Shown here piece after piece: positions 51,210 to 58,254 of a stretch of 64,000 nt of DNA. Source of the DNA: Acidobacteriaceae bacterium (GTDB lineage: Bacteria > Acidobacteriota > Terriglobia > Terriglobales > Acidobacteriaceae). Made by a program: the position numbers and the translations under genes. The notes under the pieces are model-generated. The model was not told the origin of the DNA. It ran no database searches and saw only the letters and a program-made list of their open reading frames with translations. The first letter of the stretch is position 1; the number at the start of each line of letters is the position of its first letter. The DNA lies in NCBI GenBank assembly GCA_035944135.1, contig DASZBM010000002.1, positions 806,001-870,000 of the forward strand, in the 5' to 3' direction.

Positions 51210-51563
51210 GGGGGCGTCACGGCTTCGACGGGATTGCTTGCGGCAGAGAGGCATGCCGGGGTGTGTGCACCCGTAATCGCTCACAAAACCATAAGTGCCA
51301 ACAATAATCTGGCTCTTGCTGCTTAATTAACTAAGTAGCCGATCGCTCCCGCTTTGCCTATGGGCGGGTACCGATCGTCGCACAGTAGGCTGGTCCGCGG
51401 GGTTCCGCCTGTACGCCAAGGACGAGATCAATCAGGCTGGTGGCCGGCGCATCTTCGCCCGTTCTAAGCGCCGGCTACGAGACAAAGCAGAACTGGGAAA
51501 AGCATGAAGGCTCTCTGTTGTCAGCTTTTTCGGACGCGGGTTCGACTCCCGCCGCCTCCACCA
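51210..51563 (+). ncRNA. ssrA: tmRNA (SsrA)
   Basis: One-piece tmRNA of 354 bases that rescues stalled ribosomes and tags the nascent peptide. The 5' end GGGGGCG pairs with CGCCTCC at the 3' end, which is followed by ACCA (CCA encoded). The conserved 5' GGCTTCGACGGG and the T-arm GGGTTCGACTCCC are present. The resume codon GCC at 51297 opens the tag frame; it reads ANNNLALAA with stop TAA at 51324-51326. The tag has the typical LAA end recognised by ClpXP. No integrase or attachment duplication is seen at its 3' end. Confidence 0.97.
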
Positions 51564-51645: not shown

Positions 51646-52224
51646 TCAGTTGGCGCTTCCCACTACGCCTTCCGAAGCCCGCATCCATTGTCCGAATGCT
51701 CGAAACATCTTCTTTGCGCCCATGATCGCCTTGTCTGAATCACAGTCATCGATCTCAGTCCGCAGTACCTCTAAGAACTCCCTCCACCGCTCGCCGGTCA
51801 TCGCGCCGGATCCGCTGAAGAAAGAGCAGCCGCGAGGGATATCCAGGCGAAGCGTCTTACCGACATGTCTAGCGATCAGTTGCCCACCCAGACGCGACCC
51901 TTACATCACGTACATGGCTCCAAGGAGTTCGGCGTTGCCATCGAAGATCGGGAGCTGTGGCTGAGCACTTTGATCCGGAGCGGCACCGAAAAACTGAAGA
52001 TCATCTCTGAGAAGAGGCAGTCTCCGGCGTCTTTGCGCCACCTCTCGTAATGAGTCGGCGAAACGTTTCTCTGCCAAGGTTTCCCACGCGGCGACGAGCC
52101 CGTACAGGCGTTTCAGCACAGCGACGTACTCGTCGCGTTTTAGGTCAGACCGCATGAGCGGCAGGCAATCTTCGACAGCCCGATGTTCTTCCAACGTTGA
52201 CGCCTTCAGCCGCGAGACATCCAT
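51646..52224 (-). pseudogene. bphO: Heme oxygenase (BphO-like) interrupted by an in-frame TAA
   Basis: The 5' part encodes a heme oxygenase start: KASTLEEHRAVEDCLPLMRS, whose His15 would be the proximal heme ligand. The frame meets TAA at 51903-51901 (codon 108), directly after LLGAMYVM. Reading through, the same frame continues GSRLGGQLIARHVGKTLRLD, the distal-helix motif GSxLGG, to a natural end WMRASEGVVGSAN and TGA at 51648-51646. The expected codon at the stop is GAA (GAMYVME-GS), one base from TAA. The complete protein would be about 192 residues. It overlaps the upstream sensor kinase gene by 19 bases and would supply biliverdin for the phytochrome. A sequencing error or true loss are both possible. 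Confidence 0.88.
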
Positions 52225-53714
52225 CCGCTCGCCTCCAAATGTTCGTGAGCTTTGGAGCTTCCGCTGGCGGGAAGAATCACTGTCACCTTTGTGCCGACAA
52301 GAGGTTCGGAATGTATATGCAGTTCGCCATCGTGCCGATCAATGATGCCTTTGGACACATACAAACCGAGCCCGTTTCCGAGATTCCCCTTCGTAGTCTG
52401 AAATGGGCGGAAGAGGCTCTCCATCTGTGCCGGATCAATTCCCTTGCCGTTGTCTTCGATAGTGAGGCGAACGTCAGATGAATCTTCCTCTTGCTCGAGA
52501 AGCACAGAAATCACGCCGTCCATCTGAACAGCATCGATCGCATTGCTCACTACATTAGCGAGTACCTGGCAAATTTCTCCCGGCACAACTCGCACCGTTA
52601 TCGATGAATCCAGCCGCTTGCTCATGCGAATATTCTTGTTCCGAATTTTGCCCGTGAACAGCTTCAGCGTCTCATCCACCAAGTCGCTCAGCGACGTTTC
52701 CAGCAGATTCCCTTCTTGCCGAGACCACGCCAAGGTTTGCTTGGTGATTGCGGAGATGCGGACAAGCTCATGTTGCGCGTCATTCAGGTAGGCGGCTGCC
52801 TCTTCTGGAGACGTCGCATCCGATCGCACGAGATAGAGAATATTTGTCAGCGCCTCCAGGGGATTATTGATTTCATGGGCGATGACAGATGCCAGGCGGC
52901 CTGTAAGCGCAAGACGTTCTGCAGTCTTTAATTCCTCGTCGCGAATGCGTTGCTGTTCAATATCGGTGCAGGTACCGACCCATTCGATGGGGCCATCCTC
53001 CCCTGCCAGCGGAAGTGCCCGCACGATGTGCCAATGAAAGCGGCCATGGGGCAGCATCTTGAATCGACAATCGAGTTCAAATGGATTGCCGGTACTTTGC
53101 GCTTCCTGCCACGCACTCTGACACATGATCACGTCCGAGGGATGAAGAATGCGTGCATCAAACCATGTCTCCGTGTCAGCGACACGGCGTTTCCACTGGG
53201 AGTTCGCGAAGGTGAGCCGGCCATGGCTGTCAGAGGTCCACACCATAGCAGGCAAACTGTTGGTCAATCTCTCGAAACGCTCTTCGATTTTGCGAAGATT
53301 TTGTTCAGCTTTCTCTCGTGATTGATAGTCGGCATGCTCAGAAAGCGCGCGCTTCACCGCCGGAACCAATCGATCAAGCTTCTGTTTGAGGACGTAATCT
53401 GTCGCTCCCCGCAGAAGCGTTTCGACAGCAACATCCTCACCCAGGACGCCGGAAACAAAGATATACGGCAGCCGTCGGTCCTTCGATCGAACGATATCCA
53501 GGCCAGTAAGACCGTCAAAGTCAGGCAAAGAATAGTCTGCCAAAATTAGGTCGAACTGATGTTTCGCAAATTCTGATTCGAAGCCTGCACGAGTATCGAC
53601 AACGGTCGCATCGAAAACGAACCCGGCGGACCGCAGCCGCTGTTGCGCCAGTTCTGCGTCCAGCGGGTTGTCTTCAATCATCAGGATTGAGTAATGGTCA
53701 ACGTGCGAACTCAT
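52206..53714 (-). CDS. REC-PAS-histidine kinase
   Basis: A 502-residue hybrid kinase with an N-terminal receiver: acidic pair E14/D15, phospho-acceptor D60 in ILADYSLPD and K110 in YVLKQK. A PAS domain (about 145-250) has FERLTNSLPAMVWTSDSHGRL and WVGTCTDIEQQ. The HisKA domain has H280 in VIAHEINNPLEAL. The HATPase domain follows with NAIDAV, DNGKGID and GNGLGLYVSKGII. No transmembrane segment is present, so it is cytosolic. Its start abuts the stop of the response regulator gene (TAG-ATG). Receiver-first kinases often accept phosphate from an upstream kinase, here plausibly the phytochrome. Confidence 0.92.
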   Translation of the reverse strand: MSSHVDHYSILMIEDNPLDAELAQQRLRSAGFVFDATVVDTRAGFESEFAKHQFDLILADYSLPDFDGLTGLDIVRSKDRRLPYIFVSGVLGEDVAVETLLRGATDYVLKQKLDRLVPAVKRALSEHADYQSREKAEQNLRKIEERFERLTNSLPAMVWTSDSHGRLTFANSQWKRRVADTETWFDARILHPSDVIMCQSAWQEAQSTGNPFELDCRFKMLPHGRFHWHIVRALPLAGEDGPIEWVGTCTDIEQQRIRDEELKTAERLALTGRLASVIAHEINNPLEALTNILYLVRSDATSPEEAAAYLNDAQHELVRISAITKQTLAWSRQEGNLLETSLSDLVDETLKLFTGKIRNKNIRMSKRLDSSITVRVVPGEICQVLANVVSNAIDAVQMDGVISVLLEQEEDSSDVRLTIEDNGKGIDPAQMESLFRPFQTTKGNLGNGLGLYVSKGIIDRHDGELHIHSEPLVGTKVTVILPASGSSKAHEHLEASGWMSRG

Positions 53715-54158
53715 CTATCTCTTTCCAGGTGGTGGCTCGTTTAAGACAGCCCAGAATATGCCTAGATCTTGAATCGCTTTGAAGAACTCATTGAATGCAA
53801 CAGGTTTCACGACATATGCATTGCTCCCGAGTTCATAGCCAGCGGCAACATCTTTTTCTTCTCGCGATGACGTAAGAATGACGACAGGGAGCTTCGCCGT
53901 TTCGGCGGTGTTGCGGATCATGCCAAGCAACTCCAGTCCATCGATCTTGGGAAGTTTCAGATCGAGAAGAACCACCGTAGGCAAGCCTGGCGCTCGATCC
54001 GCATATTCTCCCTTGCGAAACAGGTAATCTCGAGCCTCGGCGCCGTCGCGCGTCACCACCACTTCATTGGCGAAGCCAGTATTTGAGAGCGCTGTGAGGG
54101 TGAGTTCGAGATCGTTTGGATTATCTTCAACCAAAAGAATTGGCTTCAGTGTAGGCAT
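53715..54158 (-). CDS. Single-domain response regulator (Rcp1-like)
   Basis: A 147-residue receiver with no output domain. LLVEDNPNDLEL gives acidic residues E11/D12, the phosphoacceptor is D66 in VVLLDLKLPK, the switch Thr/Ser is in ILTSS, and the lysine is K118 in AYVVKPV. The pattern of an extra C-terminal helix (FFKAIQDLGIFWAVLNEPP) is that of Rcp1-type regulators encoded with phytochromes. It lies 24 bases after the phytochrome stop and abuts the next kinase. Confidence 0.93.
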   Translation of the reverse strand: MPTLKPILLVEDNPNDLELTLTALSNTGFANEVVVTRDGAEARDYLFRKGEYADRAPGLPTVVLLDLKLPKIDGLELLGMIRNTAETAKLPVVILTSSREEKDVAAGYELGSNAYVVKPVAFNEFFKAIQDLGIFWAVLNEPPPGKR

Positions 54159-54182
54159 AGGCGAATTGTTTACGAGCCTCCA

Positions 54183-56522
54183 TTACAGGTTTTGGGATAC
54201 CGGCAGTTGAGCTGGCTTTGTGATTGTTTTCGATGGAAGACTGAAAAAGAACGTGGCGCCTATGTCCGGCTGTCCTTCAGCCCACGTTCGGCCGCCCATT
54301 CTTGTGATGATCCGACGTACATTTGCGAGCCCAATTCCGGTGCCTTCAAAGTCCTCCATCCGATGGAGCCGCTGAAAAACTCCGAAGAGCTTATGTGCGT
54401 ACTGATTTTCGAAGCCGACTCCATTGTCTGCGACCGAAAAAACGACTTCGGCCGGCGTGAAGCTTGCCTTAACAAAGACGGAAGGGTTCTCTCGTTTGCG
54501 GGTATATTTCGCTGCATTAGAGAGTAGATTTCGCCACACCTGGCGCATCAAGTTGATATCAGTTGTAACGGTCGGCAACTCGTCGATGTTGAATGAAACC
54601 ACTCTGCCCTTCAGCTCTTGCTTCACGACGTCGTTCCACACATCTTCGGCGAGCATGGTCATCGGCAACGGACGCAGATCGAGAGGCGTTCGTGAGAGCC
54701 GGGAGAAGTTGAGAAGGCTGTCGACCAGCAAACCGGCGAACTGTGCAGATTCCGCAATGGTAGTGAGGTACTTGCGACCCCTCTCACTTAATCCTGCGGC
54801 TTCTTCTTCGATAAGCAGTTCAGCGAACCCGGAGATGTGTCGGAATGGAGCCCTCAGATCATGAGACACGGAATAAGAGAACGCTTCGAGTTCACGATTT
54901 GTGACCTCGAGCTCCAGCGCTATATCAGCCAGCTCTTCCGCCTTTCTTAGGACAATCTCCAACACCGCCTTGCGAAACTCTCGCGCCGACTCAATTTCCA
55001 CCGCGCTCCATGCGTCCGACTTGTCGCGCACAATCTCTTTCCAGGAAGAAAACGAGTGCCGCGGATGAATCTGGAGTACACCTTCAATTACTTTGTGGCC
55101 CTTTTCAGGTTCGCCTGCCCAGTTGACTGTCTGAACGACCTCAGGTCGGAACCACACAATCTGCATTCGATGAACCTGCGACATGGAGATGGCAAGGACG
55201 CCGCTTGCTCTAGGTGATAGAGGCCTGAATTCCTCGCTTTCGGCACTCAGTTCACTGGTTGCGTAAACATCATCCTTCAGCCGTTCTGACAGGTATACCG
55301 AGAGGCGTAAGACGTCTGCCTCGGACGGCGCTTCTCCGAGGCAAATGCACCGGTCGTCCACAACAATCGCGGCCCCCTGTGATCCTGTCAAAGCGCAAAG
55401 TTCAACCGGGTGTCGCGCAAGCCCATCGATGTAGCTCTCCCCTGCAGCCATATAGGTAAGCAGTTGGGTATGTATCGACTTCAGGCGGATCGCATGCGCC
55501 ATCTCTGAAGCCTGCTGCAACGCCAGCAGCTGAGCACTCATAATTCGAGTTAATACATCGCAGGCCGATCGAGTAAGGTAAGGAACGCTCTTCGGTTCGT
55601 GATGATGGGCAGAAATAAGACCCCAAAGTTTGCCCTGAGATACGATCGAGATCGACATCGACGAGATCGTGCCCATGTTGCGCATATAGTCGCGGTGAAT
55701 GGGCGATACGCTGCGTAGAACAGAGAGTGAAAGGTCGAGCGATGTAGGCTCGATTCGACCCTCTGCAGCTATAAGCGGCGATGGAAGATACTCAACATCG
55801 GGGATGATGCGAACTCGATTAAGTAAGTAAAGCTCGCGCGCCTGCCGTGGAATATCGCTCGCGGGGAAACGAAGCCCGAGGTAGGAAGGCAGGCGGTCGT
55901 TGCGATCCTCGGCGAGTACAGTGCCGTGTCCTTCTTCATCGAATTGATAGAGCATGACTCGATCGAAGCCGGTAAGTTGACGTATTTGCACCGTGATGGA
56001 TTCGCAAAGATCAGAGGCGGATTGAGGTTGTTCAAGTGTCGATGCGAAACGCGCAATGACGGTGTTCAGTTCAGCCTGGCTGATCGATCCATTGGCCCGC
56101 TCAAACTCAAGCACCTGCATCCCGCTTGCCCCATAGCCGACGACTTCAAATTCATCCTCGGAATTCGCATCACCGGGTAGACAAACGGTGCCTAAGAATT
56201 GAGCTGAACCGGGATTAGCCGCCTGGCGCAGTGTCCGACCGTCGAACAATGAACTACTTTTTGACGGGAGGAGTTCCTCAAGCCGCGCACCCAAGATTTG
56301 AGAAATGGGTCGATGCAAGAAGGCAGAAGCGTTCTCACTGGCAACAATGACTTGCGGAGGATGATCGTCGACGAGCGTCAAGCCAAGCAGGAAGCCGTGG
56401 GCCTGGATGCTTCCGGGAACCCTGATTGGCTCGCGATCACAGTTTGTGAGATCAACCAGCGGGGACGAGTATCCCTCGCCTCGTTGATTCAGATTGCCTC
56501 GCATCCCCGACAAAACAACCAC
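54183..56522 (-). CDS. bphP: Bacteriophytochrome histidine kinase
   Basis: A 779-residue red/far-red photoreceptor kinase. PAS domain: biliverdin-binding Cys C28 in LTNCDREPIRVPGSIQ. GAF domain: LRFPASDIPRQARELY with the key Asp D223 (PRxSDIP-like), and HRDYMRNMG at H276. PHY domain: tongue motif WFRPEVVQTVNWAGEP. HisKA: H554 in SYSVSHDLRAPFRHI. HATPase: NLLSNAAKYT, DNGVGFE and GTGIGLANVRRII. It has no attached receiver; the next gene supplies one. A GTG at 56522 with GGGAAG upstream is the annotated start; ATG 56504 is an alternative. The chromophore Cys lies close to the N-terminus, as in BphPs that bind biliverdin. Confidence 0.96.
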   Translation of the reverse strand: MVVLSGMRGNLNQRGEGYSSPLVDLTNCDREPIRVPGSIQAHGFLLGLTLVDDHPPQVIVASENASAFLHRPISQILGARLEELLPSKSSSLFDGRTLRQAANPGSAQFLGTVCLPGDANSEDEFEVVGYGASGMQVLEFERANGSISQAELNTVIARFASTLEQPQSASDLCESITVQIRQLTGFDRVMLYQFDEEGHGTVLAEDRNDRLPSYLGLRFPASDIPRQARELYLLNRVRIIPDVEYLPSPLIAAEGRIEPTSLDLSLSVLRSVSPIHRDYMRNMGTISSMSISIVSQGKLWGLISAHHHEPKSVPYLTRSACDVLTRIMSAQLLALQQASEMAHAIRLKSIHTQLLTYMAAGESYIDGLARHPVELCALTGSQGAAIVVDDRCICLGEAPSEADVLRLSVYLSERLKDDVYATSELSAESEEFRPLSPRASGVLAISMSQVHRMQIVWFRPEVVQTVNWAGEPEKGHKVIEGVLQIHPRHSFSSWKEIVRDKSDAWSAVEIESAREFRKAVLEIVLRKAEELADIALELEVTNRELEAFSYSVSHDLRAPFRHISGFAELLIEEEAAGLSERGRKYLTTIAESAQFAGLLVDSLLNFSRLSRTPLDLRPLPMTMLAEDVWNDVVKQELKGRVVSFNIDELPTVTTDINLMRQVWRNLLSNAAKYTRKRENPSVFVKASFTPAEVVFSVADNGVGFENQYAHKLFGVFQRLHRMEDFEGTGIGLANVRRIITRMGGRTWAEGQPDIGATFFFSLPSKTITKPAQLPVSQNL

Positions 56523-56745
56523 CCGTATACTTCCCGCGACACCTCGGATGCGGGGTATTTTTTATCTAAACACACGATTACCTACGTCTGAGACGTGGAT
56601 TTTGCTGGTTTAGGTTGCCTCCGATCTCTAGTGGCTGTGCAGAGCTGCCAGTGGCCGATCCTCCAGGATGTGACGCATGGAATGTACAGGAATTCGGGTC
56701 CGCGGTTAATTGCTGTCATTCCGCGCGTTGAGCGCAGCGAAACAT

Positions 56746-56765
56746 AGGCAGTTCCGGTTCTGCCT
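56746..56765 (-). terminator. Hairpin at the araA stop
   Basis: AGGCAG (56746-56751) and CTGCCT (56760-56765) make a 6-bp stem overlapping the araA stop codon. No T-run follows on the minus strand, so termination is weakly supported. A degenerate copy of the GTCATT...GCGCAGCGA element lies next to it at 56715-56742. Confidence 0.35.
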
Positions 56766-58254
56766 AATGCAAAATTTTGTAAGCCGCATCGTTCCAGGTG
56801 AGTTCACGGCGGAACTGTGGGATGCGAGTGTCTGCGTCGATGGTGACGAACTCTATGCCGGCAATTTCGCTGAAGTCACGAAGGTGTTCAGTGGTGAGGG
56901 CCTGCGAAAAGCTGGTGTGATGAGCGCCGCCGGCGTAGATCCAGGCTCCAGCCGCAACCTTTAGATTGGGTTTCGGCAACCAAACGGTGCGAGCTACAGG
57001 CAGTTTGGGGAAGTCCTGCTCTGGGACAATGACATCGATTTCGTTCACAATCATGCGGAAGCGATTCCCCATATCGACGATCGACGCGACGACCGCAGAA
57101 CCCGCAGGCGAGGTGAAGACAAGACGGACAGGATCGCCCTTGCCGCCGATACCAAGCGGATGCACTTCGAGACTCGGCTTACTGGCCGCAATGCTCGGGC
57201 AAATTTCGAGCATATGCGAACCCAGAATCTTGCTGTCGGATAGGCCAGCGAGATCGTACGTATAGTCCTCCATAAAGCTCGTGCCACCTGGCAGGCCCTG
57301 GGCCATCACCTTCATGATGCGGACCAGGGCTGCGGTTTTCCAATCGCCTTCACCGCCGAAGCCGAACCCCGACGCCATGAGTCGCTGGGTCGCGATCCCT
57401 GGCAACTGACCCATTCCGTGGAGATCCTCAAAGGTGTCGGTGAAGGCGCCGAAGCCGCCCTCGGTGAGAAAGGCGCGAAGGCCAAGCTCGATTCGAGCTG
57501 CAACCCTGAAGGCATCCGGTTTTTCGTGCTGCTGCGCGATGGTGTACTGCTCGCGGTATTCCTGGATGAGCTTGTCGACCTCGGCATCGGAGAACTGCGC
57601 CATTCGGTCGGTGAGATCGCCAATGCCGTAACCATTCACCTGAAAACCAAAGACGCGCTGGGCCTCGACCTTATCGCCTTCTGTGACGGCGACATTGCGC
57701 ATGTTGTCACCGAAGCGAGCAACCTTTAGGTTCTGCGACTCGTGCCAACCCAGAGCAGCGCGGATCCATGCAGCAACCTCGGCGACTGTATCGGGGTCTT
57801 TCCAATAGCCGACCACTACTTTGCGGGCAAGTCGAAGGCGCGCGGTGATGAAGCCGAACTCCCGGTCGCCGTGCGCGGCCTGGTTCAGATTCATGAAATC
57901 CATGTCGATGGTTGCGTACGGGAGCGTGTCGTTGGCTTGGGTGTGGAGATGGAGGAAAGGTTTGCGCAACGCGGTAAGGCCCGCGATCCACATTTTGGCC
58001 GGCGAGAAGGTGTGCATCCAGAGGACGAGACCGATGCAGGCCTGCATATTGTTGGCCTCGCGGGTCAGCGCTGAAATCTCATCGGCCGTCTTAACCACGG
58101 GCTTCCAGACAACTCGGACTGGAATGCTCTGTTCAGCGTTGAACGATGCGGCAATCTCACGCGAGTTAGTGGCGACCTGCTGGAGGGTTTCGGGACCGTA
58201 CAGATGCTGGCTGCCAGTGACGAACCAGATCTCATGGGTAGCCTGGATGCTCAT
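56764..58254 (-). CDS. araA: L-arabinose isomerase
   Basis: A 496-residue cytoplasmic enzyme turning L-arabinose into L-ribulose with Mn2+. It has the family opening [34 protein letters not shown] in the middle, and the metal/substrate motifs around [18 protein letters not shown] and FMEDYTYDL. The late segment [10 protein letters not shown] supplies a further metal His. Six bases separate it from the upstream epimerase gene, so it is the second gene of that pair. araB and araD are not in the window. Confidence 0.96.

Follow-up and report, generated by a model that had tools for sequence, protein, structure and literature searches.

The phytochrome operon and its surroundings

Four genes lie head to tail on the minus strand of the window, i.e. 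the whole stretch of 64,000 nucleotides analysed here, and run from position 56522 to 51646; they encode a phytochrome, a response regulator, a combined regulator-PAS-kinase protein and a heme oxygenase. The first gene (54183..56522) is intact and specifies 779 amino acids with the domain order PAS2-GAF-PHY-HisKA-HATPase. All five Pfam domains score over their cut-offs, residues 23-762 match the solved phytochrome 8uph (E 1.9e-127), and the motifs CDREPI, PASDIP, SPIH and HPRHSF as well as the kinase motif HDLRAP are present (the motifs of the N-terminal Cys, PASDIP, the PRxSF-type HPRHSF and the kinase His start at residues 28, 220, 486 and 551, respectively). The best NCBIfam match is NF041576 (BphP), with 314.3 bits against a curated cut-off of 1040 that it fails to reach. 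Judged by these domains and motifs the protein is a bacteriophytochrome that falls outside the narrow NF041576 equivalog, and it is the only PHY-domain protein that was found in the genome. In the case of the second and third genes, Pfam and the orthologs identify an intact single-domain response regulator of 147 amino acids (53715..54158, minus strand) and an intact response-regulator/PAS/histidine-kinase protein of 502 amino acids (52206..53714, minus strand). The last gene is a bphO-like heme oxygenase frame (52224-51646, minus strand). It begins within the kinase gene, with an overlap of 19 bases between its ATG and the kinase stop, an arrangement as would be found in a translationally coupled operon.

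At the 3' end of the operon, and convergent with it, lies the tmRNA gene ssrA (51210..51563, plus strand). The operon was found beside the tmRNA in none of 19 other loci of the genus with a full tmRNA, within 1.5 kb or the shorter flank that was available, and it is possibly an acquired islet at this position. No second tmRNA 3' end, the mark of an integration site, turned up in the window when as many as 3 mismatches were allowed. In those same 19 loci the gene upstream of the tmRNA, which we take to be pterin-dehydratase-like, is kept in 10. Another genome (G008; L163, tmRNA at 1501-1855) does have a repeat of this kind: the 23 bases at 2681-2703, some 830 bases further downstream, duplicate the 3' end of the tmRNA gene, a pattern that integration of an element there would be expected to leave. 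With respect to composition, the G+C content per kb is 0.52-0.55 at 52000-56999 and 0.60 for the window; the GC3 of the three signalling genes amounts to 0.51-0.58, that of the two halves of the oxygenase frame to 0.62 and 0.65, and the araA side of the operon is also lowish (0.57-0.59 G+C).

A heme oxygenase frame interrupted by a single TAA

The heme oxygenase frame holds a single in-frame TAA at codon 108 (51903-51901 on the minus strand). Translation yields 107 open residues before it (51901..52224, TAA included) and 84 after it, from the GSRLGG motif up to the natural stop (51646..51900), in agreement with the first-pass annotation, which had described the frame as intact on both sides of the stop. 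If the stop is written as X, the frame can be aligned with heme oxygenases over its full length. A search that reads through the stop gives the whole frame 41.1 bits with PF01126 (cut-off 23), and it obtains 254.7 bits with alignment A1, the 8 rows of which include the row of the window itself. When the halves are searched separately with Pfam, the C-terminal piece stays just below the cut-off of 23 with 22.6 bits and the N-terminal piece has no match; at NCBIfam there is no match for the window frame, nor for the intact oxygenase of AB60, its nearest homolog. His14, G109-S110 and L112-G113 are invariant in alignment A1. His14, in the N-terminal part, corresponds in the alignment to the N-terminal His of HemO and pa-HO; the roles of His14 and of the residues of the Gly-rich motif are presumably those generally ascribed to them in heme oxygenases. 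Since the TAA at codon 108 breaks the reading frame, which should be continuous in a PF01126/BphO enzyme, the gene as read here is a remnant of the PF01126 family and no working member of it.

The residue replaced by the stop is strongly conserved. In the alignment of the genus all seven homologs carry Glu at the position of the TAA, and the same holds for 64 of 64 distinct homologs in a wider set, with GAA in 42 and GAG in 22. The wider set was derived from 83 loci, 4 of which were dropped, leaving 79 with a match and a frame of 150 to 240 residues, and part of it was found with peptide patterns that flank the Glu residue yet exclude it. A single base thus separates the TAA from GAA, the commonest codon among the homologs. 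In the nearest of these (Acidobacteria bacterium AB60, L085) the sequence VMEGSRLGGQ stands where the window has VM*GSRLGGQ. That relatives have Glu at this point, as the first-pass annotation had claimed, is borne out; its description of the motif behind it as GSRLGG holds for the window, AB60 and G455, whereas most relatives have GSTLGG (80% of the other rows show Thr). With this Glu begins the EGS-x-LGG stretch, which also aligns with solved heme oxygenases and which we take to be the distal heme helix.

The open and conserved frame on both sides would also be compatible with a stop that is read through or reassigned, or with two separately started halves that work together as one protein. 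The plain Glu codon in 64 of 64 homologs gives no sign of a recoding shared by the family, and the TAAG context makes for an efficient stop. There is no in-frame ATG, GTG or TTG after the stop until codon 142, so that no ordinarily started half would begin with the GSRLGG motif. The suggestion of readthrough made on first reading therefore finds no support, and we consider any such rescue extremely improbable. Of the oxygenase matches in 43 of the 398 genomes of the family (E up to 1e-8), that of the window is the only one with an internal stop. A second oxygenase copy in G733, which lies beside a second phytochrome (L183, 4387-4930), is split by frame changes, its homology being spread over three frames, and looks like a frameshifted remnant; an intact copy is present elsewhere in the same genome.

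The frame behind the stop is not clearly decayed

If the stop were old, the part of the frame behind it should have drifted. At the columns whose residue is shared by 85% or more of the other 64 rows the window deviates at 0 of 12 in the N-terminal and 0 of 14 in the C-terminal part, and at the C-terminal columns conserved in at least 70% it deviates at 1 of 22, where AB60 has the same residue. In a simple simulation of drift with 0.05 changes per site, 7.5% of the runs preserved all 21 kept C-terminal columns and acquired no new stop; with 0.08 changes this share was 1.5%. It is accordingly unlikely that the stop goes back more than about 0.06 neutral changes per site. When the tree of 32 family rows is held fixed, the branch of the window accounts for 3.4% of the tree in the N-terminal half and 4.3% in the C-terminal half; the C-terminal half is thus slightly longer, and the ratio between the two (rank 11 of 32) is not outstanding. 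Divergence from the two operon orthologs described below does not stand out either: the oxygenase frame is 38.3% and 40.0% identical to theirs, which are 39.4% identical to each other, and the phytochrome, regulator and kinase of the window show no excess divergence.

A weak hint of relaxed constraint may be seen in a closer set of 29 rows, in which the window deviates at 7 of 35 C-terminal columns (the second highest of the 29) versus 2 of 34 N-terminal columns at the 70% level, and at 3 of 28 versus 2 of 25 at the 85% level. In a tree of 65 rows its end branch measures 0.67 versus a median of 0.43 (that of G455 measures 1.33). These C-terminal deviations and the long end branch may reflect ordinary divergence or an early relaxation. 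The nearest oxygenase, that of AB60, shares no more than 50% identity with the window frame, a distance at which silent sites would be saturated. Three indirect tests (conserved columns, branch lengths and identity to the operon orthologs) agree in pointing to a frame that is not clearly decayed. Given that it still looks much like a constrained gene, the change should either be young or an error in the base. The view that the change was very recent, put forward on first reading, is supported to that extent, though a base error would look the same.

Such an error, or a mutation of one laboratory culture, would mean that the natural gene is intact. It would leave this picture, i.e. a frame without clear decay and a stop one base removed from the commonest codon of the homologs. 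The quality of the assembly argues against it (4,430,068 bases in 10 contigs, 99.85% complete), and so does a mechanical layout of the longest frames, in which no gap exceeds 501 bases except for the tmRNA stretch; the latter is a weak check that was not made gene by gene, and the layout even picked a frame antisense to glmU. Genuine nonsense mutations of recent origin are, moreover, probably more frequent in assemblies of this kind than substitution errors. We therefore regard an artefact as unlikely, albeit as an explanation that has to be reckoned with.

No second source of biliverdin recognised in the genome

The first-pass annotation had called this the only heme oxygenase in the window, and had named a second intact copy as the finding that would speak against its reading. 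The copy in the window is the sole one found in the whole genome as well. Searches with PF01126, at the protein level and with a profile of the 8-row alignment did not recover a second heme oxygenase: PF01126 has one match in the genome, namely the copy that carries the stop, and the profile matches only the locus in the window at E values up to 1. As PF01126 on its own missed the oxygenase of G006, a copy that the protein search did find, the Pfam result was not used alone. HugZ-type proteins (DUF2470) are absent from the genome, and IsdG-type enzymes are not known to make ordinary biliverdin. Among the families searched (PF01126, PF14518 and DUF2470) the cell thus has no recognised biliverdin enzyme of its own.

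A search with PF14518 matched one protein in the genome (L149, 1453-2157). This candidate was rejected as a second oxygenase, for it is a CADD protein (it reaches 215.8 bits with TIGR04305, where 200 are required), a family that NCBIfam places in a folate-related context; the Pfam name 'Haem_oxygenas_2' is misleading here.

Phytochromes and oxygenases in related genomes

Within the 398 family genomes a PHY domain occurs in 42 and an oxygenase in 43. Both are present in 38, PHY only in 4 and an oxygenase only in 5, so that an own oxygenase supply is the rule among genomes with a phytochrome (38/42). The four in which the protein search found no oxygenase (G478, G528, G559 and G762) comprise three with weaker PHY matches and one with a fragment at a contig end. 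The two genes lie on one contig in 35 genomes; the oxygenase comes first in 32 of these and the phytochrome in 3 (the window, G455 and G542), a count that leaves out G025, G664 and G730, where the genes are on different contigs. G455 (L180) and G542 (L181) share the order phytochrome, response regulator, kinase, oxygenase with the window, at identities of 62-63% for the phytochrome, 78-84% for the regulator and 55-61% for the kinase, but in contrast to the window their oxygenase frame is intact. Acidipila rosea (L095) has the three signalling genes as in the window, yet there the oxygenase comes first.

The loss in AB60 appears to be the opposite of that in the window, the oxygenase being intact and the phytochrome broken. 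Its oxygenase lies beside the remnants of a similar operon: the region at 6463-7558 of L085 matches phytochrome residues 23-130 up to a stop, continues without a change of frame in a match to kinase residues 434-482, and ends with the intact oxygenase. Apparently, a large internal part of the photoreceptor was lost while the oxygenase was kept. A PHY domain was not found in G601 (locus L182), which we take to be AB60.

A light sensor probably deprived of its chromophore

We consider a real and young nonsense mutation that removed the biliverdin supply to be the probable explanation. The stop itself, the intact partner frames and the lack both of another recognised heme oxygenase and of clear decay behind the stop were observed directly, whereas the reality of the base, the loss of function of the truncated protein and the starvation of the sensor for chromophore are inferred. 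According to this explanation, a four-gene operon for red/far-red light signalling would recently have had its last gene disabled by one nonsense change. The translated product would comprise 107 residues and stop short of the EGS-x-LGG motif and all that lies behind it; lacking these parts, it should not be a working oxygenase, which would leave the cell with no recognised biliverdin enzyme, while the phytochrome and its partners would still be encoded as intact proteins. The biliverdin produced by heme oxygenase becomes part of bacteriophytochromes (PMC4053972); it is therefore expected that the phytochrome is made but is blind to light. Without biliverdin from outside it would stay an apoprotein, the kinase of which would not respond to light. 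The sensor of this soil bacterium is thus probably blind, unless there is an external source of the pigment or the base call is wrong.

The same mutation would leave the sensor working if biliverdin were supplied by neighbours, or by an enzyme outside the searched families. This variant is nested within the preferred explanation, and its probability overlaps with that of the latter. The phytochrome, regulator and kinase are intact and stand at ordinary distances from their orthologs, and the 4 of 42 PHY genomes in which no oxygenase was found suggest that such a phytochrome may not be idle. Against this stands the rule of an own supply in the other 38, and the photoreceptor may be intact simply because too little time has passed since the stop arose. 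We hold a working sensor to be distinctly doubtful. Highly unlikely in our view is the more far-reaching idea of a chromophore auxotroph, i.e. a selected and working phytochrome cascade that relies on the biliverdin of neighbours, so that light sensing would report both light and company; if it were true, AB60, with the oxygenase kept and the sensor lost, could be the supplier side of the same division.

The preferred reading of a recent inactivation makes the locus a clear, if unremarkable, example of an operon in early decay, which is a known and common kind of event. If real, it would show a photoreceptor operon just as decay sets in, when the enzyme for the chromophore is gone but the sensor is still whole, and would provide a natural test of the kinase action of an apo-phytochrome in a cell that lacks the pigment. 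Taken together, the window and AB60 would then suggest that either partner can go first.

Comparison with known heme oxygenases and bph operons

In the open-licence literature that was searched, as far as its accessible text extends, we found no phytochrome operon with a nonsense-mutated oxygenase. The purified phytochrome of P. syringae is reported to autophosphorylate in a biliverdin-dependent manner in red light (PMC5654926). The combination of bphO with bphP in one operon, as seen in the window, is known from Deinococcus, Pseudomonas, the myxobacteria and Ca. Symbiobacter. The respective reports mention the order bphO-bphP-bphR in nine of 13 operons of Deinococcus (PMC8363230), three-gene bph operons in myxobacteria (PMC6126659) and a sole oxygenase beside a phytochrome (PMC4053972). 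The operon in the window differs from these in that the oxygenase comes last and that a regulator and a second kinase lie between it and the phytochrome. At the protein level, both HemO (1j77, E 2.3e-7) and pa-HO (1sk7, E 2.1e-4) align with the whole window frame, including the N-terminal His and the EGS-x-LG motif; in contrast to these two, however, the window has a stop in place of the Glu of the motif, and its predicted product ends before the motif begins.
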